Assembly: GCF_000156335.1 (NCBI RefSeq)
Contig: NZ_DS999213.1
Coordinates: 2,778,929-2,842,928, forward strand
Source: Roseobacter sp. GAI101
GTDB taxonomy: Bacteria; Pseudomonadota; Alphaproteobacteria; Rhodobacterales; Rhodobacteraceae
DNA: 64,000 nucleotides
Direction: 5' to 3'
The position numbers were made by a program, and so were the translations under genes. Below, in pieces: positions 30,228 to 45,821 of the stretch. The first letter of the stretch is position 1; the number at the start of each line of letters is the position of its first letter. The notes beneath the pieces are model-generated. The model did no database searches. It was given only the letters and a program-made list of their open reading frames with translations, and was not told the origin of the DNA.

Positions 30228-31406
30228 TCAGCCGGGTGACATGCCGCGCAGGCGTTCGGACCGGCGGCGGAGCAGTTCGACCACGGTGAGCAGGCAGATC
30301 GAGATGCCCACAAGGATCGTTGCGACCGCGAGGATGGTCGGGCTGATCTGTTCGCGCAGGCCGGTGAACATCTGCCACGGCAGGGTCTTCTGGCCAGCTG
30401 ACCCGACGAAGAGGACCACGACGACTTCGTCAAACGAGGTGATGAAGGCGAAAAGGCCACCGGAGATAACGCCCGGCAGGATCAGCGGCATTTGCACCCG
30501 GAAGAAGGTCGTGACCGGGTTTGCGCCCATGTTCGCCGCTGCGCGTGTCAGCGAGCGGTCAAAGCCCACCAGCGTCGCGGTCACAGTGATGATGACGAAG
30601 GGGATGCCAAGCGCGGCATGGGCCAGAATGACGCCCAAGGTTGTGCCTTGCAGGCCAACGCGGCTGTAGAAGAAGTACATGCCCGCAGCCGAGATGATCA
30701 GCGGCACGATCATCGGCGAGATCAGGACCGCCATGATCGCGCGGCGGAACGGAACGTGGGGTTGGCTGAGGCCGATGGCCGCCAAGGTCCCGAAGCTGAC
30801 TGACAGCAGTGTCGCGGCGGGTGCGATCTTGAGAGAGTTCCAGACGGCACCTTGCCAGTCGGAGCTGTTGAAGAAGTCCTGGTAATGCTTCAGCGAATAT
30901 CCGGCTGGATCAAAACGCAGCATTTCCGGGGTGAAGGTAAAGAAGTTCTCGGCGTTGAAGCTGAGTGGCATCACGACCAAAATCGGTGTGATCAGGAACA
31001 CGAAGATCGCGCCGCAGATCACCCGGAATGCATAGTGCCAGAGCACCTGGCCGGGGGTCAGGTAGGGTGGGATCTTGGCGCGGTAGCGGCCTTCGTAGAG
31101 CCAGAAACTGAACCAGCTGAAGAACCACCCGAACGCCGCACCGATCAACATGGCCGGAATACCGCCCATGAGAAAGCCGACGATCCCGAGGGCAACGATG
31201 GTCGCCCAGCGGCTGATCTGTTCGTTCTTGACGATCTGCGTCAGGACAAACGCGAGCGCGCCCATGATGACGGCCCCGATGAGGATGCCCAGCAGACCGC
31301 TGCCATTCGCCGTGCCCACGAAAAGGCCGGCCACAGCACCTGCGGCAGCCACCACAGGAACGTAGAAGGAAACGGGTTTGCGGGAGATTGGTGTGAGTGC
31401 GACCAT
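30228..31406 (-). CDS. ABC transporter permease, PotC-like, with N-terminal membrane extension
   Basis: Inner-membrane permease of a spermidine/putrescine-type importer. The C-terminal 270 residues are a standard BPD_transp_1 domain with the EAA loop in LTRAAANMGANPVTTFFRVQ and a DEVVVVLF segment. Unlike PotC (about 264 residues), this protein has 392 residues because of an extra N-terminal region of about 110 residues with roughly four hydrophobic segments (YVPVVAAAGAVAGLFVG, LIGAVIMGALAFVLTQIV, TIVALGIVGFLMGG). It starts four bases after the potB-like stop, in the operon potA-potD-potB-potC. Confidence 0.9.
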   Translation of the reverse strand: MVALTPISRKPVSFYVPVVAAAGAVAGLFVGTANGSGLLGILIGAVIMGALAFVLTQIVKNEQISRWATIVALGIVGFLMGGIPAMLIGAAFGWFFSWFSFWLYEGRYRAKIPPYLTPGQVLWHYAFRVICGAIFVFLITPILVVMPLSFNAENFFTFTPEMLRFDPAGYSLKHYQDFFNSSDWQGAVWNSLKIAPAATLLSVSFGTLAAIGLSQPHVPFRRAIMAVLISPMIVPLIISAAGMYFFYSRVGLQGTTLGVILAHAALGIPFVIITVTATLVGFDRSLTRAAANMGANPVTTFFRVQMPLILPGVISGGLFAFITSFDEVVVVLFVGSAGQKTLPWQMFTGLREQISPTILAVATILVGISICLLTVVELLRRRSERLRGMSPG

Positions 31407-31410
31407 TGCT

Positions 31411-33096
31411 TTAGCCTCCCAGTTTCACGTTATCGATGCCGACGATCTTGTCATAGGCATAGTAGAGCCCCAGGACGACGGCGAGCAGGATTGCCCCAAG
31501 TGCGGCGGCGAGGCCCCAGTTCAGAGAGCTTGAGATGTGATAGGCGATCCGGTTCGAGATGAAGGTACCGGTCGTGCCGCCGACGATTTCGGGTGTAATG
31601 TAGTAGCCGATCGACAGGATGAACACGAGGATCGACCCGGCCCCGATGCCCGGCACGGATTGCGGAAAGTAAACCCGCCAGAAGGCTGTCCAGTTGGTCG
31701 CCCCCAAGGATTTCGCGGCCCTCAGATAGCTTGGCGGGACTGTCTTCATCACCGAATACAGCGGCAGGATCATGAAGGGCAGCAGAATATGCGTCATCGC
31801 GATGATCGTGCCGGTCTGGTTGTTGATCAGGGCCAGTCGACTGTCATCTGCAACGACCCCAAGCCAGACCAGCGTGTCATTCACCACGCCTTGCTGTTGC
31901 AACATCACCTTCCAGGCGGATGTCCGCACCAGCAGTGATGTCCAGAACGGCAAGAGCACGAGGATCATCAACAGGTTGGCCGTGCGCGCGGGCAGGTTGG
32001 CCAGGATCCAGGCCACCGGATAGCCCAGCAGGATGCAGCTGAGCGTGATGCAGACCGACATGAACAGCGTGCGCAGGAACAACGTGCCGTAGATCCGTTC
32101 GTTTTCAGGTCGGAATTCAGCGCCATCGGCCGATTTCTGCATGTCGATGGAGTTAAGGAAATAGCCGTTGGTGAATCTTGGGCTGTAGGCGCGGATGGTG
32201 CCCCAGATCGGGCTGGCCCCCCAGTCTTTGTCGATCTTGGTGAAGGCTTCCTTGTAATCAACGGTCTCAAAGCCCGTCGCTGCGGCGGCGGCTTCGGCAA
32301 TCTCGGTTGCGCCGGGGCCTGAGTAGCTGGCGATCACGGAGGCGGTATCGCCGGTCAGATCATCGTAGAAGGCGGAATAGATCAGGGGCCAAGGGTCTTC
32401 CTTGTACAGATTGTCTTCGTCTTCGTTTTGCACGAAGTCGGCGAAGATCATGTAATAGCCGGCTGTTTGCGGAAAGATGTCGGCAATGCCATCGCGCATT
32501 TCAAAGGCAGGCTGTGGCGTGCCGGCGGATTTGTCCCAATCCTTGATCTGGGCCAACCACGCGTCAGAGCCGAGGACTTCGTTCCAGTTCTCGCCTTTCT
32601 TCCAGAATTCGTTCAGATCTTCGAACTGGTCCTGATAGACCTCTCCGATGTCATCAACGCCACGGCCTGATTTGCGGAACAGGGACGATGCGCCGGTCAG
32701 CTCATAGTTCAGCCGTGATCCCAGACGGGTGTGCAGCTTGCGTTCCTGGGCAATGTAGATGTCTTGATAAAGCGCTTTGTAAACAGGCGCATCAGGGGTC
32801 GTACCGTCTTCTCCGCTCCATTGTTCCAACGCTTCTGTGGTGCGCGGCAGTGTATCCTGGACGATCTCGTTTTCGACAGACCGGAACAGCATGTCGGCGA
32901 TGGGGGCAATGAATGTGACCAGCACGAAAATCAATAGCGGGGCAATCAGCAGCAATGCGCGCAGTTTCTGACGGCGTAAGGCGCGGTTCAGACTGCGTTT
33001 TAGCGGTGTGCCATCGGCTGCGAGCATCGGGCCCGAGTATTCTTTCTCGGCACGCTCGGCATCTAGTGCTGTGGTCGCATTGTTTACATCGCTCAT
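31411..33096 (-). CDS. ABC transporter permease, PotB-like, with large extracytoplasmic insertion
   Basis: Inner-membrane permease paired with the PotC-like protein. It has a first membrane segment at about 47-71 (LLLIAPLLIFVLVTFIAPIA), then about 265 hydrophilic residues (72-335) before the remaining membrane segments (from LFLRTLFMSVCITLSCILL). The EAA loop is RAAKSLGATNWTAFWRVYFP. PotB is usually about 285 residues; this one has 561 because of the loop, rich in Asp, Glu and aromatic residues. Its start region can pair with a complementary stretch in the upstream gap. Confidence 0.9.
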   Translation of the reverse strand: MSDVNNATTALDAERAEKEYSGPMLAADGTPLKRSLNRALRRQKLRALLLIAPLLIFVLVTFIAPIADMLFRSVENEIVQDTLPRTTEALEQWSGEDGTTPDAPVYKALYQDIYIAQERKLHTRLGSRLNYELTGASSLFRKSGRGVDDIGEVYQDQFEDLNEFWKKGENWNEVLGSDAWLAQIKDWDKSAGTPQPAFEMRDGIADIFPQTAGYYMIFADFVQNEDEDNLYKEDPWPLIYSAFYDDLTGDTASVIASYSGPGATEIAEAAAAATGFETVDYKEAFTKIDKDWGASPIWGTIRAYSPRFTNGYFLNSIDMQKSADGAEFRPENERIYGTLFLRTLFMSVCITLSCILLGYPVAWILANLPARTANLLMILVLLPFWTSLLVRTSAWKVMLQQQGVVNDTLVWLGVVADDSRLALINNQTGTIIAMTHILLPFMILPLYSVMKTVPPSYLRAAKSLGATNWTAFWRVYFPQSVPGIGAGSILVFILSIGYYITPEIVGGTTGTFISNRIAYHISSSLNWGLAAALGAILLAVVLGLYYAYDKIVGIDNVKLGG

Positions 33097-33176: not shown

Positions 33177-33195
33177 CTCCGGTAGGTTCAAACGC

Positions 33196-34311
33196 TTATT
33201 GCGCCAACCATGCCTGGAACTTCGCGTCGATGTCGTCGCGGTAGTCAGCCCAGAACTCGTAGTTGTACAGGAACGTGTTTTCGGCGTTCGCTGGATCGGT
33301 TGGCATGTGTGGTGCCATTTCGATACCCAGATCTGCGTGCTTGCCAACCATAGGAGCGGAGGACAAACGTGCAGGACCGTAGCTGATGTACTGCGATTGA
33401 TCGGCCAGACGCTGTGTGTCTGTCGCGAACTTGACGAAGTCTTTCACACGCGCCAGACGTTCGTCGGACAGGCCTGCTGGGATGATCCAACCGTCAAGGT
33501 CAAACACCTGAGCATCCCAAAGCATTGCAACGGGCTGCTTCTGCTCTTCGATCACGCTGAACAGACGACCGTTATAGGTCGAACCCATGACGACTTCGCC
33601 ATCGGCCAACAGCTGGGGCGTGTCAGCACCGGCGGACCACCAGATTACGTTGTCCTTGATGGTGTCGAGCTTGGCCAAAGCCTTTTCCTGACCTTCTGGT
33701 GTTGCCAGAACGTCATAGACTTCGTCTTTTGCGACGCCGTCACAAAGCAAAGCCCATTCCATGTTGTTGATTGGACGCTTTTCCAGGGCGCGCTTGCCAG
33801 GATATGCTTCCAGATCGAACACGTCACAGATTTTTGTCGGAGGCGTGTCGCCTACCATGTCCGTGCGGTAGCCGAACGTGGTCGAATAAACGATCTGCGG
33901 GATAAAGCAGTCGCTGACCAGCAAATCGCCGAAATCATCGGAGGCAGATGTGCCATCGGGCGCTGCTGCCAGCATTTCGTCGGCGTCGATTTCCATCGCC
34001 AGACCTTCGTCACACAGACGGATGGCATCGGCTGCTACGACGTCGACCAGATCCCAGGTGATGTTGCCGGCTTCGTTCATGGCACGCAGCTTTGCGACCG
34101 CTTCGGCCGAGCTTTCGTCCCAAACTGCCGTCACACCTTCGTTCATTTCCAGATAAGGCTGGACGTATGCCTTGTCTTGGCTGGACTGGTAAGCGCCACC
34201 CCAGGATACAAGCGTCATTTCCTTGGCCATGTTGCCGTGTGCATCGGCGAAGGCCAATGTGCCAGCGCCAACAATCGCAGAAGAAGCGAGTAGCGTTGTT
34301 GTAAACTTCAT
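33196..34311 (-). CDS. ABC transporter substrate-binding protein, PotD-like
   Basis: Periplasmic binding protein of the first polyamine-type transporter. A signal peptide (MKFTTTLLASSAIVGAGTLAFA then DAH) precedes a mature part beginning with MTLVSWGGAYQSSQDKAYV, the SWGG form of the spermidine/putrescine-binding superfamily. Length is 371 residues from ATG at 34311. The true ligand is uncertain: the SWGG group binds various amines and other small molecules. The gene is third from nothing else: it follows potA and precedes the two permease genes, with hairpins on both sides that may raise its expression. Confidence 0.9.
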   Translation of the reverse strand: MKFTTTLLASSAIVGAGTLAFADAHGNMAKEMTLVSWGGAYQSSQDKAYVQPYLEMNEGVTAVWDESSAEAVAKLRAMNEAGNITWDLVDVVAADAIRLCDEGLAMEIDADEMLAAAPDGTSASDDFGDLLVSDCFIPQIVYSTTFGYRTDMVGDTPPTKICDVFDLEAYPGKRALEKRPINNMEWALLCDGVAKDEVYDVLATPEGQEKALAKLDTIKDNVIWWSAGADTPQLLADGEVVMGSTYNGRLFSVIEEQKQPVAMLWDAQVFDLDGWIIPAGLSDERLARVKDFVKFATDTQRLADQSQYISYGPARLSSAPMVGKHADLGIEMAPHMPTDPANAENTFLYNYEFWADYRDDIDAKFQAWLAQ

Positions 34312-34384
34312 TCGGTAGTCTCCCAATTATTACCCGTTTGGTTCTTGAGGATGTGATATCGGGCTTAACCACAGCCTACTTCGG

Positions 34385-34409
34385 GTGCCGCCCGACGTTG
34401 GGGCGGCAC
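34385..34409 (-). other. Intercistronic hairpin between potA and potD-like genes
   Basis: A perfect 9-bp stem, GTGCCGCCC (34385-34393) with GGGCGGCAC (34401-34409), encloses a 7-nt loop. No U-run follows in the direction of transcription, so it is more likely an RNA-processing or stabilising element than a terminator. Confidence 0.6.
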
Positions 34410-34423
34410 ACTGCCGTCAGACG

Positions 34424-35524
34424 CTATGCATCTAGCGCGCGGCAATCTTCTGCAAGCCAGCCGATTTCAATCTGCTGGCCCGGCTTCAGGCGTACCTGAT
34501 CCGGTGCGTTGCGAGTTTTGATGATAAAGTTGTCGGTCCCCGCGACGCGCAAACGCGTGCGGAAAATGTCGCCCATATAGACGAACTCAAGCACTTCGGC
34601 TTTCAGCGTATGTGCGCCTTCGGCCATCCGGTCCTTGTTGAATTCAACGCGTTCGGGCCGGATCGACACACGGGTGCGTTCGCCTGCCTTGGTCACGTTG
34701 ATCGGCTTGGCCTCGATCAGGCCGCCCCCATCAAGCTGCACAATGCAGGTGCCACCCTTGATCTCTTTTACGACGCCTTCCAGCGTGTTGTTTTCGCCGA
34801 TGAACTGCGCAACAAAGCTGTTTTCGGGCTCTTCGTACAGCAAATCCGGCGGGGCCAACTGTTGGATGCGACCGTTTTCAAACACGGCAACGCGGTCCGA
34901 CATGGTCAGCGCTTCGGTTTGGTCGTGGGTCACATAGACAACGGTAATACCCAGTTCGTGGGCAAGATGCGTGATCTCGAACTGCAAGGTTTCGCGCAGT
35001 TGTTTATCCAAGGCACCCAAGGGTTCGTCCATCAGGACCAGTTCGGGTTCAAACACCAAAGCGCGGGCCAAGGCGACACGCTGTTGTTGACCACCGGAAA
35101 GTTGCGCAGGGCGGCGGCCGCCAAAGTCGCCCATCTGAACCCGGTCCAGCGCGATCTTGACCTGCTTTTCACGCTCGGACTTGCCGATCTTGCGGACTTC
35201 CAGCGGAAAGGCGAGGTTTTCGGCGACTGTCATATGCGGGAACAGAGCGTAGTTCTGGAACACCATGCCGATGCCGCGCTTGTGCGGTGGGATGTTGTTG
35301 ATCGACTTGCCGTCAAGGCGGATATCGCCGTGTGTGGCGGTCTCGAACCCGGCCAGCATCATCAGGCAAGTTGTCTTGCCCGATCCCGATGGCCCAAGCA
35401 TTGTCAGGAATTCGCCCTTGGGCATGGATAGGTTCAGGTCTTTGACGACTAGATTTTCGCCGTCATAGCTTTTTTGTACGCGTTCAAATTCGACAAACGC
35501 ATTTGTTGCTGACGTATCTGCCAA
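34424..35524 (-). CDS. ABC transporter ATP-binding protein, PotA-like
   Basis: ATPase of the polyamine-type importer. Walker A is LGPSGSGKTTCLMML, the signature is AQLSGGQQQRVALARALVFE, Walker B is LVLMDEPLGALD, and the switch His follows in VYVTHDQTEALT. A C-terminal TOBE domain (about 280-366) follows. At 366 residues from ATG at 35524 the length is normal. It is the first gene of the minus-strand operon and is divergent from the M24 gene; the 258-base gap between them carries the promoters and a TGGGA-AATG-TCCCA dyad at 35626-35639. Confidence 0.94.
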   Translation of the reverse strand: MADTSATNAFVEFERVQKSYDGENLVVKDLNLSMPKGEFLTMLGPSGSGKTTCLMMLAGFETATHGDIRLDGKSINNIPPHKRGIGMVFQNYALFPHMTVAENLAFPLEVRKIGKSEREKQVKIALDRVQMGDFGGRRPAQLSGGQQQRVALARALVFEPELVLMDEPLGALDKQLRETLQFEITHLAHELGITVVYVTHDQTEALTMSDRVAVFENGRIQQLAPPDLLYEEPENSFVAQFIGENNTLEGVVKEIKGGTCIVQLDGGGLIEAKPINVTKAGERTRVSIRPERVEFNKDRMAEGAHTLKAEVLEFVYMGDIFRTRLRVAGTDNFIIKTRNAPDQVRLKPGQQIEIGWLAEDCRALDA

Positions 35525-35782: not shown

Positions 35783-36964
35783 ATGCCCGCAATTGATCTG
35801 CCATTTTCCCCTTTAGAATATGACCGTCGCCTGAAACTGGTGCGCGATGAGATGTCCAGACGCGGGCTTGATGCGCTTTTCGTGACCGATCCCAGCAACC
35901 AGGCGTGGCTGACCGGATACGACGGATGGTCATTTTATGTGCACCAGGGCGTAATTATCTTGCCTGATGCCGATCCGATCTGGTGGGGGCGCAATCAGGA
36001 CACCAATGGCGCGCTTAGAACGGTGTGGATGGGGGCCGATGCGGTGCGCGGGTATGCCGATGGCTTTGTCCAGTCGACAGAACGTCACCCGATGCAGGAC
36101 CTTGCCAAGCATCTTGCGGGCGCTGGTGTCGAGGCGGGGCGCATCGGTGTCGAAATGGACAACTACTATTATTCGGCCAAGGCGCATGCGTCGCTTTGCG
36201 AAAGCCTTCCCAAGGCGCAGGTGGTCGATGCCACGGCTTTGGTGAACTGGAAACGTACCGTCAAATCCGAACCTGAACTGGCCTTTATGCGCAAGGCGGC
36301 GCAGATTTCCGAAAAGATCGTTGATGGCTTGCTAGAGCGGGTTGAACCAGGCGTGCCCAAGAATGAGATCGTCGCCGAGATATACCGTGATGCGATCCGT
36401 GGCGTTGACGGCGCGTGGGGGGATTATCCTGCGATCGTGCCGCTGTTACCATCAGGATCAGACGCCGCCGCGCCGCATCTGACATGGGATGGCCGGCCCT
36501 TTGCAACCGGAGAGGCAACGTTTTTCGAGATTTCAGGCTGTTACCGACGCTATCACGCGCCGTTTTGCCGGACGCTGTTCCTTGGAACGCCGCCCGATTT
36601 CCTGAAACGGGCCGAGGCCGCGCTGGTCGAAGGGTTGGAGGCCGGTCTGGATAAGGCGCGTGCCGGGAACCGTGCTTGCGACGTGGCAAATGCGCTTGCC
36701 GCACCGCTGGAAAAGGCAGGGATCGAACGCGGAGCGCGCTGTGGTTACCCGATCGGGATCAGCTATCCTCCGGATTGGGGCGAACGCACGATATCGCTGC
36801 GGTCCGAGGACGAGACTGTGCTAGAGCCGAACATGACCTTCCATTTCATGCCCGGTCTCTGGATGAAGGATTGGGGGATCGAGATCACCGAAAGCATCCG
36901 CATCCGCGAAGATGGCGCGGCAGAAACCTTCTGCAATCGACCCCGGAAGATGTTCGTTAAATGA
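35783..36964 (+). CDS. M24-family hydrolase resembling ectoine hydrolase DoeA/EutD
   Basis: A 393-residue creatinase/aminopeptidase-P-fold protein. An N-terminal creatinase_N domain (about 15-150; AWLTGYDGWSFYVHQ) precedes the pita-bread domain. The metal aspartates of true aminopeptidases are missing: the usual D-x-G and S-D-x-T-R-T segments read FFEISGCYRRYHAPFCRT, as in creatinase and DoeA/EutD. Glu249 in that segment falls near the position of the active-site Glu that I recall for EutD. This fits opening of ectoine to N-acetyl-diaminobutyrate, but a generic M24 role is possible. Start chosen by a GGAAAGG site nine bases upstream. Coupled (ATGA) to the M20 gene. Confidence 0.78.
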   Translation: MPAIDLPFSPLEYDRRLKLVRDEMSRRGLDALFVTDPSNQAWLTGYDGWSFYVHQGVIILPDADPIWWGRNQDTNGALRTVWMGADAVRGYADGFVQSTERHPMQDLAKHLAGAGVEAGRIGVEMDNYYYSAKAHASLCESLPKAQVVDATALVNWKRTVKSEPELAFMRKAAQISEKIVDGLLERVEPGVPKNEIVAEIYRDAIRGVDGAWGDYPAIVPLLPSGSDAAAPHLTWDGRPFATGEATFFEISGCYRRYHAPFCRTLFLGTPPDFLKRAEAALVEGLEAGLDKARAGNRACDVANALAAPLEKAGIERGARCGYPIGISYPPDWGERTISLRSEDETVLEPNMTFHFMPGLWMKDWGIEITESIRIREDGAAETFCNRPRKMFVK

Positions 36965-38115
36965 CCCTGCAAGCGACCGTTGACCTGCTGGATCGGCTGA
37001 TTGCCTATCCGACCGTTTCGACCGACAGCAATCTCGAGATGATCATCGACCTGTCCGGCAGGTTGCAATCGCTTGGTGCGCGCACGCATATCTTTGGCGA
37101 TGAAACCGGCAGCAAGGCGACCTTGTTCGGCAGCCTTGGGCCGGACGTCCCGGGGGGGGTATTGCTGTCGGGTCATTCCGATGTTGTGCCTGTGACGGAT
37201 CAGGATTGGTCAAGCGATCCGTTCCAGATGCGACAGGCCGACGGTCTGCTTTACGGGCGCGGTACTTGCGACATGAAAGGGTTCATCGCGGCAAGTGTCG
37301 TGATGGCCGAACGTTATGCCGCGCTGCCATTGAAGCGCCCGGTGCATTTCGCCTTTACCTATGACGAAGAAACCGGATGTCTGGGCGCGCAGGCGCTGAT
37401 CCCGGAACTGACCCGCCTTGGCATCAAGCCCGACATCGCCATCATCGGAGAGCCGACAGAGATGCGCGTGATCGAGGGCCACAAGGGATGCTGCGAATAC
37501 ACCACGCGGTTCGAGGGGCTTGAGGGGCACGGGTCGTCGCCCGATCTGGGCGTGAACGCTGCCGAATACGCGGTGCGATATGTGGCCCGCCTGATGGCGC
37601 TGCGCGAAGATTTGCGGGCGCGGGTCCCGGCAGGCAGCCGGTTCGAGCCGCCCTATACCACGATCAACATTGGGCGGGTTCAGGGCGGTCATGCGCATAA
37701 CGTGATTGTCGGCAAGGCCGAGGTCGATTGGGAATTCCGCCCTGTGCAAACCAGTGATTTCCGCTTTGTCAAAGACACGATGGAGGCATTTATCGAACAG
37801 GATTTGCTGCCCCAAATGCGCGCTGTCTATCCGCAGGCCGATATCTCGACCGAGACGTTGGGCGAAGTCGTGGGCCTTGAACCCATGACCGAAAACGCCG
37901 CGCGCGATCTGATGGTGGGGTTGTTGGGGGCGAACAGCGCTGGCGTTGTCCCGTTCGGCACCGAGGCCGGTCTGTTTCAGCAGATGGGCATGGATGTCAT
38001 CGTGTGCGGGCCCGGGTCGATTGCGCAGGCGCACAAGCCCGATGAATTCGTCAGCCTCGACCAGCTTGATGCCTGCCTTGGCATGCTGGAACGCCTTGGG
38101 CAAAGGTTGGTGTAG
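36961..38115 (+). CDS. M20-family deacetylase, N-acetylornithine deacetylase (ArgE)-like
   Basis: A 384-residue zinc-dependent deacetylase. Metal-binding segments are LLSGHSDVVPV, YGRGTCDMKGFIAAS, FTYDEETGCLGAQAL and IIGEPTEMRVIEGHKG; the dimerisation domain is in the middle (about 175-290). The sequence is ArgE-like (N2-acetylornithine to ornithine). Its start overlaps the M24 stop, so the two act together. If the M24 enzyme makes N2-acetyl-2,4-diaminobutyrate, the M20 enzyme could deacetylate this one-carbon-shorter homologue of acetylornithine; that is inference. Known ectoine clusters use an AstE-type deacetylase (DoeB/EutE) instead. Confidence 0.85.
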   Translation: MTLQATVDLLDRLIAYPTVSTDSNLEMIIDLSGRLQSLGARTHIFGDETGSKATLFGSLGPDVPGGVLLSGHSDVVPVTDQDWSSDPFQMRQADGLLYGRGTCDMKGFIAASVVMAERYAALPLKRPVHFAFTYDEETGCLGAQALIPELTRLGIKPDIAIIGEPTEMRVIEGHKGCCEYTTRFEGLEGHGSSPDLGVNAAEYAVRYVARLMALREDLRARVPAGSRFEPPYTTINIGRVQGGHAHNVIVGKAEVDWEFRPVQTSDFRFVKDTMEAFIEQDLLPQMRAVYPQADISTETLGEVVGLEPMTENAARDLMVGLLGANSAGVVPFGTEAGLFQQMGMDVIVCGPGSIAQAHKPDEFVSLDQLDACLGMLERLGQRLV

Positions 38116-38139
38116 GGGCGCAAGTTACGCTCGCGCCCC
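38115..38139. terminator. Hairpin between convergent M20 and aminotransferase genes
   Basis: GGGGCGC (38115-38121) pairs with GCGCCCC (38133-38139) around an 11-nt loop. It lies exactly at the end of the M20 gene and nine bases before the aminotransferase stop. No U-run follows, so termination strength is uncertain. Confidence 0.5.
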
Positions 38140-38148
38140 GAAACCGGT

Positions 38149-39579
38149 TCAGCCCAAAGGCGAGTCGGCATCGTGGATGTGATCCTCGGCAGCTTTCAGC
38201 AGATCGCCGTCCTTTAGCGCGGTATAGGTTTCATCCAACGCTTTCTTGGCGCGGGTCATGAAGGTGTTGATTTCTTCGGGCGTGATGACCAGCGGCGGGG
38301 AAATGATCATGCGGTCGCCGACATGGCGCATCACCAGATTGTTGGCAAAGCACCGTTCGCGGCACATGTAGCCGACGGTGCCCGCGTCGCTGGCAAATTT
38401 CGACCGTGTTTCCTTGCGCGGGGACAGTGGCAAGGACGCCATCATGCCCGAGATGTTGACGCCGCCCACAAGCGGATGTTCGGACAGCTTATCCAGCCCT
38501 TCCTTGAGGGCGGGACCGGCGACAGTGTTCACGTGATCAAGGATGTTTTCGTCTTGAAGGATACGCAGGTTTTCCAGCGCGACGGCAGAGCAGACCGGGT
38601 GACCGGAATAGGTGTACCCGTGATTGAATTCGCCTGAATTGATGACTTCGGCAATTTCGTCGCAGACGATCGACCCACCGATGGGCTGATAGCCCGAGCT
38701 GAGCCCCTTGGCGATTGTCATGATGTGCGGCTTGATCCCCATGGTCTGCGAGCCGAACCAGTTGCCGGTACGACCGAACCCGCAGATCACTTCGTCAGCG
38801 ATGATCAGGACATTGTATTTGTCGCAAATGCGCTGGATTTCGGGCCAGTAGGTGCTGGGCGGAACGATAACGCCGCCAGCCCCTTGGACCGGCTCACCGA
38901 TAAAGGCCGCGACGTTGTCCGCACCAAGCTCAAGGATTTTCGCCTCAAGTTCTTGCGCACGGGCAAGGCCAAAGGCTTCGGGCGTATGATCGCCACCCTC
39001 GGCCCACCAATCGGGTTGGTTGATGTGGTGGATGCCGGGGATCGGCATGCCGCCCTGTTCGTGCATGTAGCTCATTCCGCCCAGCGATCCGGACCCCATG
39101 GAGGACCCGTGATAGGCGTTCTTGCGGCTGATGATGTGGGATTTCTCGGGCTTGCCCTTCATCGCCCAATAGGTGCGGACCATGCGGATGTTGGTGTCAT
39201 TCGCCTCGGACCCCGAGCCGGCAAAGAAAACATGGTTCAGGTCGCCGGGGGCGAGGCTTGCGATTTCCTTGGCCAGTGCGATGGCAGGCACATGCGATGT
39301 CATGAAGAAGGTGTTGTAATAGTTCAGTTCCAGCATCTGGCGCGCCGCGACATCCGCCATTTCCTGACGGCCGTAGCCGATGTTGACGCACCACAGGCCT
39401 GCCATGGCGTCCAAGATCTTGTTGCCTTCGCTGTCGGTCAGGTAAACGCCCTTGGCGCTGGTGATGATGCGCGCGCCCTTTGCGGCAAGTTCATCATTGG
39501 TTGTGAACGGGTGCATGTGATGCGCGGCATCCAGAGCCTGGAGTTCAGCGGTGGGCATGTGGTTGGTGATATGGGACAT
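38149..39579 (-). CDS. spuC: Class III aminotransferase, SpuC-like (polyamine/putrescine-pyruvate transaminase)
   Basis: A 476-residue PLP-dependent omega-transaminase. The sequence follows Pseudomonas SpuC closely as I recall it: GARIITSAKGVYLTDSEGNK, ILDAMAGLWCVNIGYGRQEM, FFAGSGSEANDTNIRMVRTY, IADEVICGFGRTGNWFGSQ, and the PLP lysine in TIAKGLSSGYQPIGG. It would move the amino group of putrescine (or a related diamine such as diaminobutyrate or cadaverine) to pyruvate. It is on the minus strand behind a TGATCA dyad at 39619-39632 and next to a GntR gene, with polyamine-type transporters on both sides. Confidence 0.9.
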   Translation of the reverse strand: MSHITNHMPTAELQALDAAHHMHPFTTNDELAAKGARIITSAKGVYLTDSEGNKILDAMAGLWCVNIGYGRQEMADVAARQMLELNYYNTFFMTSHVPAIALAKEIASLAPGDLNHVFFAGSGSEANDTNIRMVRTYWAMKGKPEKSHIISRKNAYHGSSMGSGSLGGMSYMHEQGGMPIPGIHHINQPDWWAEGGDHTPEAFGLARAQELEAKILELGADNVAAFIGEPVQGAGGVIVPPSTYWPEIQRICDKYNVLIIADEVICGFGRTGNWFGSQTMGIKPHIMTIAKGLSSGYQPIGGSIVCDEIAEVINSGEFNHGYTYSGHPVCSAVALENLRILQDENILDHVNTVAGPALKEGLDKLSEHPLVGGVNISGMMASLPLSPRKETRSKFASDAGTVGYMCRERCFANNLVMRHVGDRMIISPPLVITPEEINTFMTRAKKALDETYTALKDGDLLKAAEDHIHDADSPLG

Positions 39580-39670: not shown

Positions 39671-40351
39671 TTAAAGCGAAGCCTGAATTTGCCGCATGCC
39701 TTGGGCGACGTCTTCGGCCATGGCATGGGCTGCGGCAGCCGCGTCGCGGTTCTGGAAAGCGGCGAGAAGATCGGCGTGTTTGTCGGGCAGGTTCAAGGTG
39801 CCGAAACGTCCGCACACAACCCGCAGCGATGGCCCGAAACGCAGCCAAAGCCGGTCCACGGTTTCGCTGGTGATCGGAGCATCGGCGCAGCTGTAAATCT
39901 GGGCATGAAACTGGTAGTTCCGGGTCAGGTATTCGCCGATATCACCGCGCGCAATGGCCGAGTTGAGCAGGACATCGGTCTGCGTCAAGCGGTCCAGTCC
40001 TTCGGGTGTCATCCGTGTTGTGGCGCGGCGGGCCAGCTCTGGTTCCAGTGTTTTACGGATAAAACCCAGTTCTTCCGTGTCAGCAGCGGTCAGGCTGGGA
40101 ACAACGACGCGGCGATTGCCCTGATGGATCAGGGCACCTTCGGCGATCAGGCGGCGCAAGGCTTCGCGCACGGGCGTCATCCCGGCATTCAGAAGGCTGG
40201 TCAGCCCTTGGATGGTGACGGCTTGTCCCGGTGCCAGATCGCCGAAAAGGATCAAGGTGCGCAGATGTGCATAGACATGTTGATGCGCCGGAATTTTCGA
40301 CGCAATGTCCGGTGTCAGATCGGGTGAAATCGTGACGTCAGTTAATGTCAT
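39671..40351 (-). CDS. GntR family transcriptional regulator, FCD (FadR) subfamily
   Basis: A 226-residue regulator with an N-terminal winged helix (about 20-85; VYAHLRTLILFGDLAPGQAV, GMTPVREALRRLIAEGALIH) and a helical C-terminal FCD ligand domain (about 95-220; KTLEPELARRATTRMTP, RNYQFHAQIYSCADAP). I take ATG at 40351 (MTLTDVTISPDLTPD) after a GAGCAGG stretch; starts at 40405 and 40420 are possible. It is divergent from the potF-like operon and downstream of spuC's promoter region, which suggests it controls both, with a polyamine or its breakdown product as ligand. Confidence 0.9.
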   Translation of the reverse strand: MTLTDVTISPDLTPDIASKIPAHQHVYAHLRTLILFGDLAPGQAVTIQGLTSLLNAGMTPVREALRRLIAEGALIHQGNRRVVVPSLTAADTEELGFIRKTLEPELARRATTRMTPEGLDRLTQTDVLLNSAIARGDIGEYLTRNYQFHAQIYSCADAPITSETVDRLWLRFGPSLRVVCGRFGTLNLPDKHADLLAAFQNRDAAAAAHAMAEDVAQGMRQIQASL

Positions 40352-40437
40352 GTGCCTGCTCAAAATATGGTCAACGGGTGAAGCTTGCGAAGGGTACGCT
40401 TGCATGAAACGATAAATCAACTTGTCGCAAGACGCAA

Positions 40438-40451
40438 AACTTGATCAAATT
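40438..40451. promoter_or_regulatory. Candidate GntR operator between gntR and the potF-like gene
   Basis: AACTTGATCAAATT is a 14-bp dyad with six of seven pairs matching, 47 bases before the potF-like start and 87 bases from the gntR start. A match to the site at 39619 supports a shared regulator. Confidence 0.5.
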
Positions 40452-40497
40452 GATGAAAGGCCGGGATCAACCGGGTCTAACCAACGGGAGCAATCGA

Positions 40498-41583
40498 ATG
40501 AAATACGGCATATTAAGCGGCGTGGCCGCAACTGCCCTGATCGCAACCTCTGCCTTTGGCGAAGAGGTGCGTGTTTACAACTGGTCCGATTATATCGACG
40601 AATCCTTGCTGCAAAAGTTTGAGGACGAAACCGGGATCGACCTGATCTACGACGTGTTCGACAGCAACGAAGTGCTTGAAACCAAGATGCTTGCGGGCGG
40701 GTCCGGCTATGACGTCGTCGTGCCGTCGGGCACCTTCCTGCAGCGCCAGATTTCGGCGGGCGCGTTTCAGAAGCTGGACAAATCCAAGCTGCCCAACCTC
40801 GCGAACATGTGGGATGTGATCGATACGCGGGTGGCGAAATATGACCCCGGTAATGAATACGCGATCAACTACATGTGGGGAACCACCGGCCTTGGCGTGA
40901 ACATCAACAAGGTCAAGGAAGTGCTGGGCGAAGATGCGCCGGTTGATTCGCTTGCATTGGTCATGGACCCCGCGAACATGGAAAAGCTGGCGTCCTGCGG
41001 CGTTCAGTTTCTGGATGCACCGGTCGAAATGATCCCGGCGGCGTTGAAGTACATCGGTGAAAACCCTGACGCGCAAGACGTCGAGACCATCGAGAAGGCA
41101 GAACCCGTTCTGACCGCCATCGCGCCTTACGTTCAGAAATATCACAGTTCCGAATACATCAACGCATTGGCCAACGGCGAAATCTGCGTGGCCTTCGGAT
41201 GGTCTGGCGATATCCTGCAGGCGCGCGACCGCGCGGCAGAGGCCGACAATGGTGTGGAAATCGAATATTACGCCCCGAAAGAAGGTGCGTTGATGTGGTT
41301 TGACAACATGGCGATCCCGGTCGATGCGCCGAACCCCGATGGCGCGCATAAGTTCCTGAACTTCATCATGGATGCGCAGAACATGGCGGCGGCGTCCAAC
41401 TACGTCTATTATGCCAACGGCAACAAGGCGAGCCAGGAGTTCCTGGTCGAAGACGTGATTGGCGATTCCGCGATCTATCCTGACGAGGCAACGCTCGAGA
41501 ACCTCTATACCACGTCGCCTTATTCACCCAAAGTGCAGCGTGTCGTCACGCGCCTGTGGACAAAGGTCAAATCCGGTACCTAA
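40498..41583 (+). CDS. potF: Polyamine ABC transporter substrate-binding protein, PotF/SpuD-like
   Basis: Periplasmic putrescine-type binding protein of 361 residues. A signal peptide (MKYGILSGVAATALIATSAFG) is followed by EEVRVYNWSDYIDESLLQKF; the NWSDYI segment carries ligand contacts in E. coli PotF and Pseudomonas SpuD. Further blocks are DVVVPSGTFLQRQI, YAINYMWGTTGLGVNINKV and CVAFGWSGDILQARDRA. I chose ATG at 40498 after a GGGAG site. A strong terminator lies between it and potG, which should make this protein more abundant than the rest of the transporter. Confidence 0.94.
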   Translation: MKYGILSGVAATALIATSAFGEEVRVYNWSDYIDESLLQKFEDETGIDLIYDVFDSNEVLETKMLAGGSGYDVVVPSGTFLQRQISAGAFQKLDKSKLPNLANMWDVIDTRVAKYDPGNEYAINYMWGTTGLGVNINKVKEVLGEDAPVDSLALVMDPANMEKLASCGVQFLDAPVEMIPAALKYIGENPDAQDVETIEKAEPVLTAIAPYVQKYHSSEYINALANGEICVAFGWSGDILQARDRAAEADNGVEIEYYAPKEGALMWFDNMAIPVDAPNPDGAHKFLNFIMDAQNMAAASNYVYYANGNKASQEFLVEDVIGDSAIYPDEATLENLYTTSPYSPKVQRVVTRLWTKVKSGT

Positions 41584-41597
41584 TCTGATTTGATCAG

Positions 41598-41628
41598 GGG
41601 CAGGGCGTTTTGGTCCTGCCCTTTTTTT
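41598..41628 (+). terminator. Intrinsic terminator/attenuator between potF-like and potG-like genes
   Basis: GGGCAGG (41598-41604) pairs with CCTGCCC (41615-41621), then T7 (41622-41628). It lies 15 bases after the potF stop and 44 bases before the potG start, so read-through must supply the downstream genes unless a second promoter exists. Confidence 0.82.
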
Positions 41629-41672
41629 CTGCCCCCCGTCCGTTTCCGGTCTGTGCAAAGGAATGCCCCAAA

Positions 41673-42800
41673 GTGAGCCAGAAAATATTTGCCCCTTGGG
41701 ATGACCCGGATCAAAAGCCGCTGATCCGGTTCGAGAATGTCACTAAGAAATTCGGTGACTTTACGGCGATCGATGATCTGACGCTGAATATATACGAAAA
41801 GGAATTTTTCGCGCTGCTTGGCCCATCCGGCTGCGGCAAGACGACGATGATGCGGATGCTTGCAGGGTTTGAAAACCCGACCTCGGGCAAGATGGAGCTT
41901 TCTGGCAAGAATATTGCGGGCATCCCGCCGAACAAGCGCGCGGTGAACATGATGTTCCAGTCCTACGCGCTGTTCCCGCACCTGAGCGTCTGGGAAAATA
42001 TTGCCTTCGGTCTGAAGCGTGGCGACATGGCCAAGGATGCGATTGCGGCACGGGTTGATGAGATGCTCAAGCTGACCCGGTTGACGAAATTCGCGCGGCG
42101 CAAACCGCATCAGATTTCCGGTGGCCAACGGCAGCGCGTGGCGCTGGCACGGTCCCTGGCGAAGGCACCGAAGCTGTTGCTGCTGGATGAACCGCTCGGC
42201 GCGCTGGACAAGAAGTTGCGCCAGGATACGCAGTTCGAATTGATGGACATTCAAGAGAGTACCGGCACCACCTTTGTGATCGTGACCCACGACCAGGAAG
42301 AAGCGATGACCGTTGCCAGCCGTGTGGCTGTCATGGACGAAGGCCGCGTCATTCAGGTCGCCACGCCGGACGGCATTTATGAGGCCCCGAATTCAGTCTA
42401 TGTTGCTGATTTCATTGGGGATGTTAATATCATCGAAGGCAAGGTCAAAGCCGCAGGTGACGGGATGTACCACCTTGACTGGGCCGCCAACGAAGCGCCA
42501 TTGCTCGCGACGTCGGAAGTGCCGTTTAGTGACGGGCAAACTGCGCATCTCGCGATCCGCCCCGAAAAGATCGCGATCACGACGGAAAAACCGGACGAGG
42601 CGAAGAACGCCGTGCAGGGCAGCGTGCTGGACATCGCCTATCTGGGCAACCTCAGCACCTACTATGTTCAACTGGCGGGGGGGATGATCATCAAGGCGCA
42701 GACCGCCAACACCCGCCGTTTGTCCCGCCGCAGTATCACTTGGGAAGACAAGGTCTGGGTGTCGTGGAACGGCACCGCTGGCGTGTTGCTGGAGCGATGA
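41673..42800 (+). CDS. potG: Polyamine ABC transporter ATP-binding protein, PotG-like
   Basis: ATPase of the second transporter. Walker A is LGPSGCGKTTMMRML, signature HQISGGQRQRVALARSL, Walker B LLLLDEPLGALD, and switch His in IVTHDQEEAMT; a TOBE domain occupies the last 90 residues. I take a GTG start at 41673 (reads as MSQKIFAPWDDPDQKPLI), nine bases after AAAGGA, giving 375 residues; no in-frame ATG fits. The next gene overlaps by four bases (ATGA), so potG-potH-potI are translationally coupled. Confidence 0.93.
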   Translation: MSQKIFAPWDDPDQKPLIRFENVTKKFGDFTAIDDLTLNIYEKEFFALLGPSGCGKTTMMRMLAGFENPTSGKMELSGKNIAGIPPNKRAVNMMFQSYALFPHLSVWENIAFGLKRGDMAKDAIAARVDEMLKLTRLTKFARRKPHQISGGQRQRVALARSLAKAPKLLLLDEPLGALDKKLRQDTQFELMDIQESTGTTFVIVTHDQEEAMTVASRVAVMDEGRVIQVATPDGIYEAPNSVYVADFIGDVNIIEGKVKAAGDGMYHLDWAANEAPLLATSEVPFSDGQTAHLAIRPEKIAITTEKPDEAKNAVQGSVLDIAYLGNLSTYYVQLAGGMIIKAQTANTRRLSRRSITWEDKVWVSWNGTAGVLLER

Positions 42801-43678
42801 ACATGCGTCGGTTCTTTCTGATCGCGATACCCTATGCGTGGCTATTGGCGCTGTTCCTGATCCCCTTCGTGATCGTGTTCAAGATTTCGCTTTCCGATCT
42901 TGCGCTGTCGATCCCGCCTTATGCGCCAACGATGAAAGACGGTTTTGCGCAGATGTTCGCAGATTTCGATCTGGAAAACTTTGTGTTTCTGACGACCGAC
43001 GATCTGTATTGGAAGGCCTATCTGAGCAGCTTGAAGATCGCCCTGTTTTCAACGGCATTGGCGTTGATGGTTGGCTATCCGATGGCCTACGGGATGGCGC
43101 GTGCGCCGGAAGAATGGCGGCCAACACTGATGATGCTGGTAATCTTGCCGTTCTGGACCAGCTTTCTGATCCGGGTCTATGCGTGGGTGGGCATTCTAAG
43201 CAATGAGGGGCTGTTGAACCAGTTCCTGCTTTGGACGGGCATCATCGGTGAACCGCTGACCATTCTGAATACGACGACAGCGGTCTATATCGGGATCGTC
43301 TACACTTACTTGCCGTTCATGATCCTGCCGATTTACGCCGCACTTGACCGACTGGACGAATCCCTGATCGAAGCCGCCGAGGATTTGGGCTGTTCGCGCA
43401 GCAAGGCGTTTTGGCTGGTGACGGTGCCGCTGTCGCGCAACGGGATCATCGCTGGCTGCTTTCTAGTGTTCATCCCTGCGCTAGGCGAATTCGTTATTCC
43501 GTCGCTTCTGGGTGGGTCCGGCACGCTGATGATCGGCAAAGTCCTGTTCGAAGAATTCTTCAACAACCGGGATTGGCCCGTCGCAAGTGCGGTGGCAGTG
43601 ATCTTGCTGCTGATCCTGATCGTCCCGATCATCCTGTTCCAGCGCAACCAGCAGCGCCAAGCGGAGGCTGAAACGTGA
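42797..43678 (+). CDS. potH: Polyamine ABC transporter permease, PotH-like
   Basis: A 293-residue inner-membrane permease with about six hydrophobic segments, beginning MNMRRFFLIAIPYAWLLALF. The EAA loop is in EAAEDLGCSRSKAFWLVTVP, followed by LGEFVIPSLLGGSGTLMIG, typical of PotH. Length is normal, in contrast to the enlarged PotB-like protein of the other transporter. Start overlaps potG and its end overlaps potI. Confidence 0.93.
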   Translation: MNMRRFFLIAIPYAWLLALFLIPFVIVFKISLSDLALSIPPYAPTMKDGFAQMFADFDLENFVFLTTDDLYWKAYLSSLKIALFSTALALMVGYPMAYGMARAPEEWRPTLMMLVILPFWTSFLIRVYAWVGILSNEGLLNQFLLWTGIIGEPLTILNTTTAVYIGIVYTYLPFMILPIYAALDRLDESLIEAAEDLGCSRSKAFWLVTVPLSRNGIIAGCFLVFIPALGEFVIPSLLGGSGTLMIGKVLFEEFFNNRDWPVASAVAVILLLILIVPIILFQRNQQRQAEAET

Positions 43679-44496
43679 AGCGCACAAGTTGGTTTACCGT
43701 CACGTCGCTGACCCTTGGGTTCGCATTTTTGTACCTGCCGATGGTGCTGTTGGTGATCTACAGCTTCAACAGCTCGAAACTGGTGACCGTCTGGGCCGGT
43801 TTTTCAACCAAATGGTACGGCGAATTGATGCAGAACGAAGAGTTTCTGGATGCCGCTTTGGTCACGTTGAAGGTCGCCGTGGCATCGTCGACCTTGGCGA
43901 CACTTCTGGGGACAATGGCAGCCTACGTTCTGGTGCGGGGCGGGCGGTTCATGGGGCGCACTTTGTTTTCCGGTATGATCTATGCCCCGCTGGTGATGCC
44001 CGAAGTAATCACGGGCCTGTCCTTGTTATTGCTTTTCATCGGCGTCGGCCTTGATCGCGGTGTGCTGACCATCGTGCTGGCGCATACGACATTTTCGATG
44101 TGCTATGTCTCGGTTGTCGTGTCATCGCGTCTGGTGTCCTTCGATCGCTCGCTGGAGGAAGCGGCGCTTGATCTGGGCTGTTCTGCCTTTGACGCCTTTC
44201 GGTTGGTGACCCTGCCGATCATCGCGCCGGCCGTAATCTCGGGCTGGCTGTTGGCCTTCACGCTGTCGCTGGACGATCTGGTGATTGCGTCGTTCACGAC
44301 CGGACCGTCTGCAACGACGCTCCCGATCAAGATCTGGAGCGCCGTGCGCCTTGGTGTCTCTCCCGAGATCAACGCGCTGTCGACGATCATGATTGCCATC
44401 GTCACCGTCGGCGTGATTAGTGCATCGCTTGTTTCCAAACGTAGCGCGATAAAGGCACAGCAGGACATGCAGGCCGCAGAACGCGGGGCCACGTGA
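43675..44496 (+). CDS. potI: Polyamine ABC transporter permease, PotI-like
   Basis: A 273-residue inner-membrane permease that pairs with PotH. It begins at a GTG (43675) inside the potH stop and reads MKRTSWFTVTSLTLGFAFLY. The EAA loop is LEEAALDLGCSAFDAFRLVT, followed by FTLSLDDLVIASFTTGPSAT. The TLPIKIWSAVRLGVSPEINA segment is typical of PotI/PotC. The FAD oxidoreductase gene overlaps its stop by four bases. Confidence 0.93.
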   Translation: MKRTSWFTVTSLTLGFAFLYLPMVLLVIYSFNSSKLVTVWAGFSTKWYGELMQNEEFLDAALVTLKVAVASSTLATLLGTMAAYVLVRGGRFMGRTLFSGMIYAPLVMPEVITGLSLLLLFIGVGLDRGVLTIVLAHTTFSMCYVSVVVSSRLVSFDRSLEEAALDLGCSAFDAFRLVTLPIIAPAVISGWLLAFTLSLDDLVIASFTTGPSATTLPIKIWSAVRLGVSPEINALSTIMIAIVTVGVISASLVSKRSAIKAQQDMQAAERGAT

Positions 44497-45821
44497 AACA
44501 TATTTACGACGCCTTTGCCTACAGCGATGCGCCGCGGGCGCAGTGCTGGTGGGATCAGACCTGCGATATTCCGGTGCGACCAGCACTTGAACAGGATGAA
44601 ACCTGCGATGTTGCTATCATCGGCGGTGGTTTCACGGGCATTTCAGCCGCGCTTCATCTGGCCGAGGCTGGCGTGAAAGCGGTCGTGCTCGAGAACCGGT
44701 ATGTCGGTTGGGGTGCCTCGGGACGCAATGGCGGATTTTGTTGCCTTGGCGGCGGGCGGTTGGGCGACGCCGCGCTGGACCGCAAATTTGGCCGCGAAGA
44801 CCGATTGGCGTACCGCGCTACAGAAATGGCGGCCATCACTTTGGTTGATGCCTTGACCAAACGTTTCGACATCGACGTTGACCGTCATTCGAACGGCGAA
44901 ACCGAATTGGCCCATCGGCCCCGTGATATGGACGATTTGCGGGCGCGCGTTGCACAGATCAAGGAAAACTACGGGCTTGATGCAACGCTCATCGAAAAGA
45001 AAGACCTTGAAGCGCATGGTTTGAAGGGGCCCTTTCATGGGGGGCTGACGATTCCGGCGGGGTTCGGGCTGAACCCGCGTAAATATATCACCGGGCTGGC
45101 GGCAGCAGCAGAAGCGGCAGGCGCGCGGATTTATCATGATACGGCAGCGCAGCAGATCAATCGGCGCGGGGACAGCTACGAAATCAGAACGCAGGGCGGG
45201 ATCCTTAGGGCTGATAAGGTGATCGTTGCGACGAACGGCTACTCCTCGGAAGATTTGCCCGAGTGGCTTGCCGGTCGCTACATGCCGGCGCAATCTTCGG
45301 TAATCGTGACACGTCCCCTGTCGATCCAAGAGCTGGCAACCGCTGGCTGGACCAGTGATCAAATGGTCTATGATACGCGCAACCTGCTGCATTATTTCCG
45401 TCTAATGCCAGACCGCAGGATGCTTTTCGGCATGCGGGGTGGACTTATGACAGGCCCGACCGCCGAAGGTCGCGCGCTTGATCGTGTCAGACGCGACTTT
45501 GAGGCGATGTTCCCGGCATGGTCCGGGGTGGAAACCCCCTATGCCTGGTCCGGTATGGTATGCATCGCGCGCGATCAGATGCCTTTCGTGGGCGGGATTC
45601 CGGGCCATAACAATCTCTTTGCGACCCTGTGTTATCACGGCAACGGGGTCGCGATGGGAAGTTATTCAGGTGCCATGATCGCAAACGTCGTGATGGGTAA
45701 GACCTTTGATGGCCCCTACCCAAAATCGATGCAGAGGCCGCTGAAGAAATTTGAATTCGGGTCGCTTCGCCGCGCGGTTATGCCTTTGGCCTATCTTGGT
45801 TTTGCGCTTGCTGATCGTTAG
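44493..45821 (+). CDS. FAD-dependent oxidoreductase, DAO family, PuuB-like
   Basis: A 442-residue flavoprotein. The dinucleotide motif is CDVAIIGGGFTGISAALHLA, and the FAD/substrate region near the C-terminus is VCIARDQMPFVGGIPGH with the GNGVAMGSYSGAMIA end motif. It resembles gamma-glutamylputrescine oxidase (PuuB/OrdL), which oxidises glutamylated putrescine. No gamma-glutamylputrescine synthetase (PuuA) or aldehyde dehydrogenase is in the window, so it may use free or acetylated amines or work with distant genes. It is the last gene of the potFGHI operon, beginning at a GTG that overlaps potI. Confidence 0.88.
   Translation: MKHIYDAFAYSDAPRAQCWWDQTCDIPVRPALEQDETCDVAIIGGGFTGISAALHLAEAGVKAVVLENRYVGWGASGRNGGFCCLGGGRLGDAALDRKFGREDRLAYRATEMAAITLVDALTKRFDIDVDRHSNGETELAHRPRDMDDLRARVAQIKENYGLDATLIEKKDLEAHGLKGPFHGGLTIPAGFGLNPRKYITGLAAAAEAAGARIYHDTAAQQINRRGDSYEIRTQGGILRADKVIVATNGYSSEDLPEWLAGRYMPAQSSVIVTRPLSIQELATAGWTSDQMVYDTRNLLHYFRLMPDRRMLFGMRGGLMTGPTAEGRALDRVRRDFEAMFPAWSGVETPYAWSGMVCIARDQMPFVGGIPGHNNLFATLCYHGNGVAMGSYSGAMIANVVMGKTFDGPYPKSMQRPLKKFEFGSLRRAVMPLAYLGFALADR

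Follow-up and report, generated by a model that had tools for sequence, protein, structure and literature searches.

An ArgE-type M20 hydrolase predicted to replace the deacetylase EutE behind a EutD-like ectoine hydrolase in Roseobacter sp. GAI101

Ectoine is a common salt-protection molecule and serves many marine and soil microbes as a nitrogen-rich nutrient. The closest described relative of the locus reported here is the EutD-EutE (DoeA-DoeB) pair of Ruegeria pomeroyi and Halomonas elongata, where a EutD-type M24 gene is followed directly by a deacetylase gene. The chemistry of this pair is described in sections of PMC3187862 and PMC8739950, and a passage of PMC3187862 reports that loss of DoeB in H. 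elongata leads to accumulation of N-alpha-acetyl-2,4-diaminobutyrate (N-alpha-acetyl-DABA). We analyzed a window of 64,000 nucleotides from the alphaproteobacterium Roseobacter sp. GAI101 (Rhodobacteraceae; contig NZ_DS999213.1, positions 2,778,929 to 2,842,928), in which a EutD/DoeA-like M24 gene is likewise followed directly by a gene for a predicted deacetylase, an ArgE-type M20 protein. The H. elongata phenotype defines the job that this M20 protein would take over. With a probability of about 0.82, we read the M24-M20 pair as the module with which a pathway of ectoine breakdown begins.

The M24 gene (35783..36964, plus strand) encodes a predicted ectoine hydrolase of 393 amino acids with Creatinase_N and Peptidase_M24 domains (Pfam). 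Its best NCBIfam match is ectoine hydrolase DoeA (TIGR02993, 589 bits, E 4.7e-177), and it scores 213 bits with the DoeA_2 model (NF038259). A Protein Data Bank (PDB) search returned 'Ectoine hydrolase DoeA' as the top match (PDB ID 6twk/6twj, 509 bits), followed by a proline dipeptidase with 67 bits. When aligned with dipeptidase 3q6d, the aspartates of the LDFGA and CSDITRT motifs come to lie opposite Glu249 and Pro260 of M24, and for these two residues the initial annotation is right that the protein lacks the peptidase metal aspartates. Glu249, in which that annotation had seen a creatinase/DoeA-type feature, corresponds to Glu255 of 6twk (counted along the alignment), which we take to be the catalytic residue, and is conserved in 98% or more of EutE-linked EutD rows and of the main M20 subclade. 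The M24 protein thus has the full-length Creatinase_N and M24 domain, the replaced peptidase aspartates and the Glu255 equivalent by which we recognize the EutD family. Judged by its sequence, it is a EutD-like protein and not a dipeptidase, in line with the scores above and the EutD tree described below. Two clusters of open reading frames antisense to M24 and M20 were set aside as artefacts.

The M20 gene (36961..38115, plus strand; 384 amino acids) shares 4 bp (ATGA) with the M24 gene, confirming the overlap, and the positions of these two genes and of the nearby transaminase gene, as first annotated. Its product, which we predict to deacetylate N-alpha-acetyl-2,4-diaminobutyrate as EutE/DoeB does elsewhere, contains Peptidase_M20 and M20_dimer domains (Pfam). 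It exceeds the ArgE cut-offs of TIGR01892 (347.3 versus 297.7 bits) and PRK07522 (442.5 versus 412 bits) and aligns to the ArgE structure 7rsf across almost its full length. As a Peptidase_M20 member it lies outside the M14-type EutE/DoeB family TIGR02994. Seven residues (His72, Asp74, Asp104, Glu136, Glu137, Glu164 and His358) are conserved in 98% or more of the 105 EutD-linked M20 proteins compared, the window protein included; by known M20 chemistry we assign them to the di-metal site and the catalytic pair. To remove the N-alpha-acetyl group from diaminobutyrate would be a small step from acetylornithine.

A survey of 120 genomes from the window's family, representing 119 genera, ties this M20 subfamily to EutD. 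We called EutD at E ≤ 1e-100, EutE above its curated cut-off (402.7 bits, TIGR02994) and the M20 subfamily at E ≤ 1e-120. At these thresholds 79 genomes contain EutD, 17 contain EutE and 48 contain the M20 subfamily, and every genome with EutE or with the M20 subfamily also has EutD. The M20 subfamily is found in 48/79 genomes with EutD and in 0/41 without (Fisher p 1e-12), and EutE and M20 occur together in 2 genomes versus 10.3 expected (Fisher p 4e-6); these p-values are not strictly valid since the genomes are related, though almost all are from different genera. Downstream of 84 EutD genes we find EutE in 16 cases (at about −4 to 31 bases), M20 in 38 (at about −4 to 139 bases) and neither in 30. 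The 30 EutD genes without an adjacent partner have M20 elsewhere in the genome in 12 cases and EutE elsewhere in one. By tblastn at E 1e-5, the flanks of these 30 loci (∼4–5 kb, less at contig ends) contain neither EutE nor an amidohydrolase relative of DoeB2, a second protein named as a deacetylase of N-alpha-acetyl-DABA; an M20 relative (37%) is present in L187 and a 36-residue piece in L133. G040 and G051, two surveyed genomes in which no EutD passes the threshold, contain EutE relatives below the cut-off (273–296 bits).

We further compared 80 loci, the best of 589 relatives matching the window M24 protein. M20 lies directly 3' of M24 in 66 of them (counted by tblastn, with pieces shorter than 330 residues dropped), and L069 would be the 67th but has a 477-base gap. 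The 66 loci belong to Rhodobacterales (48), Hyphomicrobiales (15) or no named order (3), and with the pair kept this often, chance is not an issue. EutE was detected in the flanks of 0/80 loci and above its cut-off in 0/20 genomes searched. Whole genomes were searched for 13 of the 14 loci in which M20 is not adjacent, and 9 of these carry M20 elsewhere.

These distributions bear on the possibility that the window protein is an ordinary ArgE, serving arginine synthesis or the use of N-acetylornithine, which merely stands behind an ectoine hydrolase gene. It does pass both ArgE models and keeps the M20 catalytic residues. The genome of the window (4.52 Mb, 9 contigs, 96.5% complete), however, encodes ArgJ (390 versus 298 bits) and a second ArgE-type protein that likewise passes TIGR01892 and PRK07522. 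The window M20 is therefore dispensable for arginine synthesis, and it is not the genome's sole ArgE; the initial annotation had listed a sole ArgE, combined with a complete eut/doe cluster elsewhere, as fatal to its proposal. An ordinary ArgE would also hardly account for a subfamily confined to genomes with EutD and retained in 9/13 genomes whose EutD lacks it as a neighbour, and we regard this as the least probable of the readings weighed here.

The change of partner was followed on a quick maximum-likelihood tree built from 164 EutD rows. The rows comprise the 80 loci (66 with and 14 without adjacent M20), the family rows (37 M20-linked, 16 EutE-linked and 30 unpartnered) and the window. 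All 104 M20-linked rows fall into one branch of 125 rows (SH-aLRT 95) with a nested branch of 123 rows (SH-aLRT 99); the larger branch also holds 21 unpartnered rows and 0 EutE-linked rows. With unpartnered rows ignored, the partner changes once on the EutD tree. If the lack of a partner is treated as a state of its own, 13 changes are required for M20 linkage, versus 49 in shuffles. The deep root of the tree is unsure, as long branches join among the most distant unpartnered rows. Taken together, the pairing of M20 with M24, the rarity of genomes with both EutE and M20, and the one swap on the tree bear out the earlier suggestion that an ArgE-type enzyme stands in place of EutE.

In the genome of the window, only the window M24 protein matches the EutD model with more than 500 bits, and the next best match has 159 bits. 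EutE is absent above the cut-off (best 70 versus 402.7 bits), and there is no sign of the complete eut/doe cluster elsewhere that would have spoken against the proposed pair. We rejected the 70-bit match on contig C9 (C9:312969) as a EutE; by eye, it sits among trp-type genes. Also rejected as the genome's EutD was a second M24 gene (C9:2866035; L095:8973-10163), which scores 287 bits with DoeA_2 (cut-off 575) and has predicted 5-oxoprolinase-type, TRAP-transporter and amidase genes as neighbours (by eye) and no ectoine genes. EctA is below its cut-off (best 24 versus 120.6 bits), which on this evidence puts the pair outside a synthesis-degradation cycle (EctB and EctC were not searched).

The company kept by the pair in related loci links it to ectoine. 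One or more of the genes atf, ssd, asnC, eutB and eutC are found near M24 in 37/80 loci; all five are present in 16, of which 13 have an adjacent M20. The labels asnC, ssd and atf derive from gene order: the corresponding proteins are Lrp-like, SSADH-like and class III aminotransferases that score below the cut-offs of named models or fall into an unnamed subfamily, and the best model for atf is PRK07482. In L070, EutB, EutC, EhuA and EhuC exceed their curated cut-offs beside M24-M20 and EhuB is just under (187 versus 191 bits). The gene order of L070 is ehuB-ehuC-(a stretch unchecked for ehuD)-ehuA-eutB-eutC-(second M24)-asnC-ssd-atf, divergent from M24-M20-GntR.

The second M24 protein of L070 (L070:3407-4753) scores 207 bits with DoeA_2, below the cut-off. 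Clusters with ehuA and M24 contain such a second M24 also in L051, L066, L068, L077, L078 and L084, and its position relative to eutC, asnC, ssd and atf varies between the seven loci. We pose as a question whether it may act in the use of 5-hydroxyectoine. The GntR-family regulator of L070 (L070:12353-13042) has relatives (at least 35% to L070's) in the flanks of 32/80 loci, L070 included. It is found 3' of M20 in those loci looked at, whereas the window has no such gene at that place, and it may be the M20 branch's own ectoine regulator.

Several observations weigh against an ectoine route. At 589 bits, M24 falls below the curated DoeA cut-off of 613 bits (TIGR02993, an equivalog model), and we therefore describe it as EutD-like and do not assign it to the NCBI equivalog. 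It is the only canonical ectoine gene within the window, with no other adjacent. No EutC exceeds the cut-off in the genome (best 115 versus 471.65 bits), so that the organism may not use 5-hydroxyectoine via the EutABC route. In the family survey, 30/84 EutD genes have no adjacent partner, and for 17 of them the genome as a whole contains no EutE and no M20 at the thresholds used. Four of the 13 genomes searched for a detached M20 have none, and weaker EutE relatives (208–289 bits) occur in 5/20 genomes searched. The 80 loci were chosen as the best matches to the window protein and are biased to its branch. Lastly, G013 has both a EutD-EutE and a EutD-M20 pair, and in G119 (78% complete, 5% contamination) a EutD-EutE pair is accompanied by M20 on a different contig; two genomes with both partner types suggest that the pairs may differ in substrate.

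Some of these points would fit a pair that degrades a related acetylated or cyclic-amidine metabolite instead of ectoine, with M24 opening or cleaving this compound and M20 completing the breakdown; the likeness to EutD and the ectoine genes nearby would then stem from a recent shift in specificity. The score slightly below the DoeA cut-off and the two pair types in G013 could be read in this way, as could four positions that separate EutE-linked from M20-linked EutDs (Tyr-to-Phe168, Asp-to-Gly237, Ser-to-Cys262 and Lys-to-Arg316) and the many loci with other transporter types where EhuABCD stands elsewhere. The DoeA cut-off, however, fails to separate the partner types: the EutE-linked EutD of G119 scores 606 bits and the M20-linked one of G067 scores 618 bits. 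Moreover, 84 alignment columns are conserved at 98% or more in both the EutE-linked EutDs and the main M20 subclade (123 rows), M20-paired loci contain eutB, eutC, asnC, ssd, atf and ehuA, and EutE and M20 are near-exclusive across genomes. We thus consider a different substrate unlikely and retain ectoine as the compound on which the M24-M20 pair would act.

From the homologies, the conserved active-site residues and the gene pairing, we infer the substrates, products and order of steps of the ectoine route as follows. M24 would open the ectoine ring hydrolytically, mainly to N-alpha-acetyl-L-2,4-diaminobutyrate. The ArgE-type di-metal hydrolase would then remove the acetyl group, yielding diaminobutyrate and acetate, which is the job of EutE elsewhere. 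An atf-type aminotransferase would convert diaminobutyrate to aspartate semialdehyde, to be oxidised to aspartate. The candidate for this third step stands alone in the genome (C9:1783436-1784806; L136:8937-10310), scores 836 bits with PRK07482 and is 80% identical to the atf of the ectoine cluster in Roseovarius lutimaris (L026). By eye, ATP-synthase-like and RTX-like genes lie beside it, and no other ectoine gene was seen near.

The initial annotation had given the transaminase step to a SpuC-like class III aminotransferase encoded next to the pair (38149..39579, minus strand; 476 amino acids; PRK07480, 756 bits), such that M24, M20 and this enzyme would form one pathway in a polyamine locus. 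The gene does adjoin the pair, on the opposite strand. Its product is 37% identical to the cluster atf and not of the atf type (445 bits with PRK07482, cut-off 687). In the PDB, the top matches are unnamed class III entries (838–795 bits), and 'Polyamine:pyruvate transaminase' 9j4z scores 594 bits. No SpuC-like gene is present in the flanks examined of 49/66 M24-M20 loci; the gene occurs in 20/80 loci, in 19 of which potF is there too, and in L031 and L034 the gene and potFGHI are flipped as one block. Its usual companions are potFGHI and a FAD oxidoreductase, which in the window belong to a separate putrescine block (39671..45821) composed of a GntR/FCD regulator (minus strand), putrescine-type ABC genes PotFGHI (plus strand) and a DAO-family FAD oxidoreductase (plus strand). 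With an atf-type copy available elsewhere in the genome, a single pathway that includes the SpuC-like enzyme appears very improbable. This part of the initial proposal does not stand, and we assign the enzyme to putrescine use rather than to the M24-M20 pair.

Upstream of M24 and divergent from it, a Pot-type ABC operon spans positions 30228-35524 on the minus strand. It encodes an ATPase (34424..35524; TIGR01187, 380 bits, above the cut-off of 355.6), a solute-binding protein (33196..34314; SBP_bac_8) that is a candidate binder of ectoine-type zwitterions, and two permeases, one of 561 amino acids with a long N-terminal extension (31411..33096) and one of 392 amino acids (30228..31406). The operon stands beside M24 in this divergent orientation in 34/80 loci. 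The binding protein has no NCBIfam match at E 0.001. We find Gly40 and Arg250 in 36/36 Pot-type binding proteins and Asp at both positions in 20/20 PotF-type proteins, leaving out Pot binding proteins below 40% and PotF below 60% identity; the window's own PotF has Asp where the Pot-type binding protein has Gly40 and Arg250. The polyamine ligand residues of Escherichia coli PotF are presumably Asp39 and Asp247, and the acidic ligand residues of a PotD/PotF polyamine binder are missing from the Pot-type binding protein. The view of the whole neighborhood as a polyamine locus therefore has to be given up.

A predicted structure of the Pot-type binding protein (mean pLDDT 82, 21 sequences) resembles GABA and opine binders in fold. 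Its nearest matches are SAR11 PotD with GABA (Z 37.0, r.m.s.d. 3.2, 338 aligned residues), the iGABASnFR precursor (Z 34.3, r.m.s.d. 2.4, 314 aligned) and the GABA receptor Atu4243 (Z 34.2, r.m.s.d. 2.0, 313 aligned); entries titled as polyamine-bound reach Z 26.4 at most (the best with r.m.s.d. 3.0, 311 aligned). A fold match names no ligand, and GABA itself is possible for this modeled protein. The operon lies on one strand with eutB-eutC-asnC-ssd-atf in L017, L026, L029 and L032, with part of this set in L028, and with atf beside it in L031, L055, L058 and L060; it never shares a locus with EhuB (0/80). In L119 (genome G036), potA, potD, two permease genes and eutD follow one another in this order on one strand. 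With 649.9 bits, the EutD of G036 exceeds the cut-off for DoeA, and it does not belong to the M20 branch; G036 has no EutE match at E 1e-80 and no M20-subfamily match at E 1e-120. Scanning the interval from the Pot operon to M24 for promoters revealed no sigma-70-like site. We propose that the divergent Pot-type operon probably imports ectoine, its candidate ligand. In L087 (12387-16982), L089, L090 and L091, a Liv (branched-chain-amino-acid-type) ABC operon lies downstream of M24-M20, possibly a further importer type for the same pathway.

If the M20 protein does the job of EutE, EutE-based criteria omit the commoner arrangement in the family (38 versus 16 EutD genes), and genomes of the M24-M20 kind are easily overlooked by surveys that seek the textbook enzyme. 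According to their accessible sections, PMC8739950 relied on a dataset that defines catabolic clusters by juxtaposed eutD-eutE, and PMC13188858 concentrated on genomes with EutD, EutE and EutB. The main text of PMC13188858 does not contain the words ArgE, M20, acetylornithine or polyamine, and the portion of PMC5320631 at hand mentions argE only with GABA regulons. In our partial search of the literature, we found neither an ArgE-type deacetylase nor an importer of the Pot type described for ectoine. The idea that a different hydrolase may take over from EutE has precedents: the named DoeB2, and the Bacillota clusters without eutE and with an 'abgB' amidohydrolase that a section of PMC13188858 describes. 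The same search showed no earlier account of a DoeA-type EutD with an ArgE-type partner, of how widely this pair occurs, or of the candidate Pot-type importer; genome context supports this predicted version of the known pathway well. We think it rather likely that an alphaproteobacterial branch of ectoine users swapped EutE for an ArgE-type M20 once, that many of its members also use a Pot-type importer recognizing ectoine as a zwitterion, and that, with M20 pairing at 38:16 in the window's family, surveys keyed to EutE undercount ectoine turnover. The locus would be a clean case of an unrelated enzyme replaced behind the same partner. Such a replacement allows a test of whether EutD needs its deacetylase for product release, a dependence that PMC8739950 proposes for EutD-EutE.

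Compared with known systems, the loci related to the window share with EutD-EutE clusters the neighbors atf, ssd, asnC, eutB, eutC and ehu. They differ in the deacetylase, which is a relative of the M14-type aspartoacylases in EutD-EutE and an ArgE-type M20 protein in the window, where M24 also belongs to a separate branch. Another known system is DoeB2 (NF038260), which is not EutE and is also named N(2)-acetyl-L-2,4-diaminobutanoate deacetylase, with DoeA_2 (NF038259) as the partner of its model. A methanotroph doeB mutant accumulates N-alpha-acetyl-DAB in the account given in part of PMC7192451, where the DoeB is 22% identical to Halomonas DoeB; this methanotroph protein may be of the DoeB2 type. 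Proteins matching DoeB2 also match the TIGR01891 amidohydrolases, whereas the window M20 is of the ArgE type and its partner of the DoeA and not the DoeA_2 type. DoeB2 (cut-off 550) is not among the best 25 of the 50 NCBIfam matches of the window M20, the weakest of those listed scoring 68 bits. The amidohydrolase family of DoeB2 presumably belongs to the M20 clan. Two tandem amidohydrolases in the window's genome (L097:9961-12338) score 324 and 323 bits with DoeB2 and are encoded close to the second ArgE-type gene and an oligopeptide-type ABC operon; in BLASTP the window M20 shows no likeness to the one with 324 bits (E 0.79). The Pot-type operon has the same kinds of ATPase and permeases as PotABCD and PotFGHI, and differs from them in a binding protein that is nearest to GABA binders. 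With ArgE (TIGR01892; 7rsf) the window M20 has the family and the catalytic residues in common, but its subfamily is instead tied to EutD genes, and its predicted substrate is one carbon shorter than that of ArgE.

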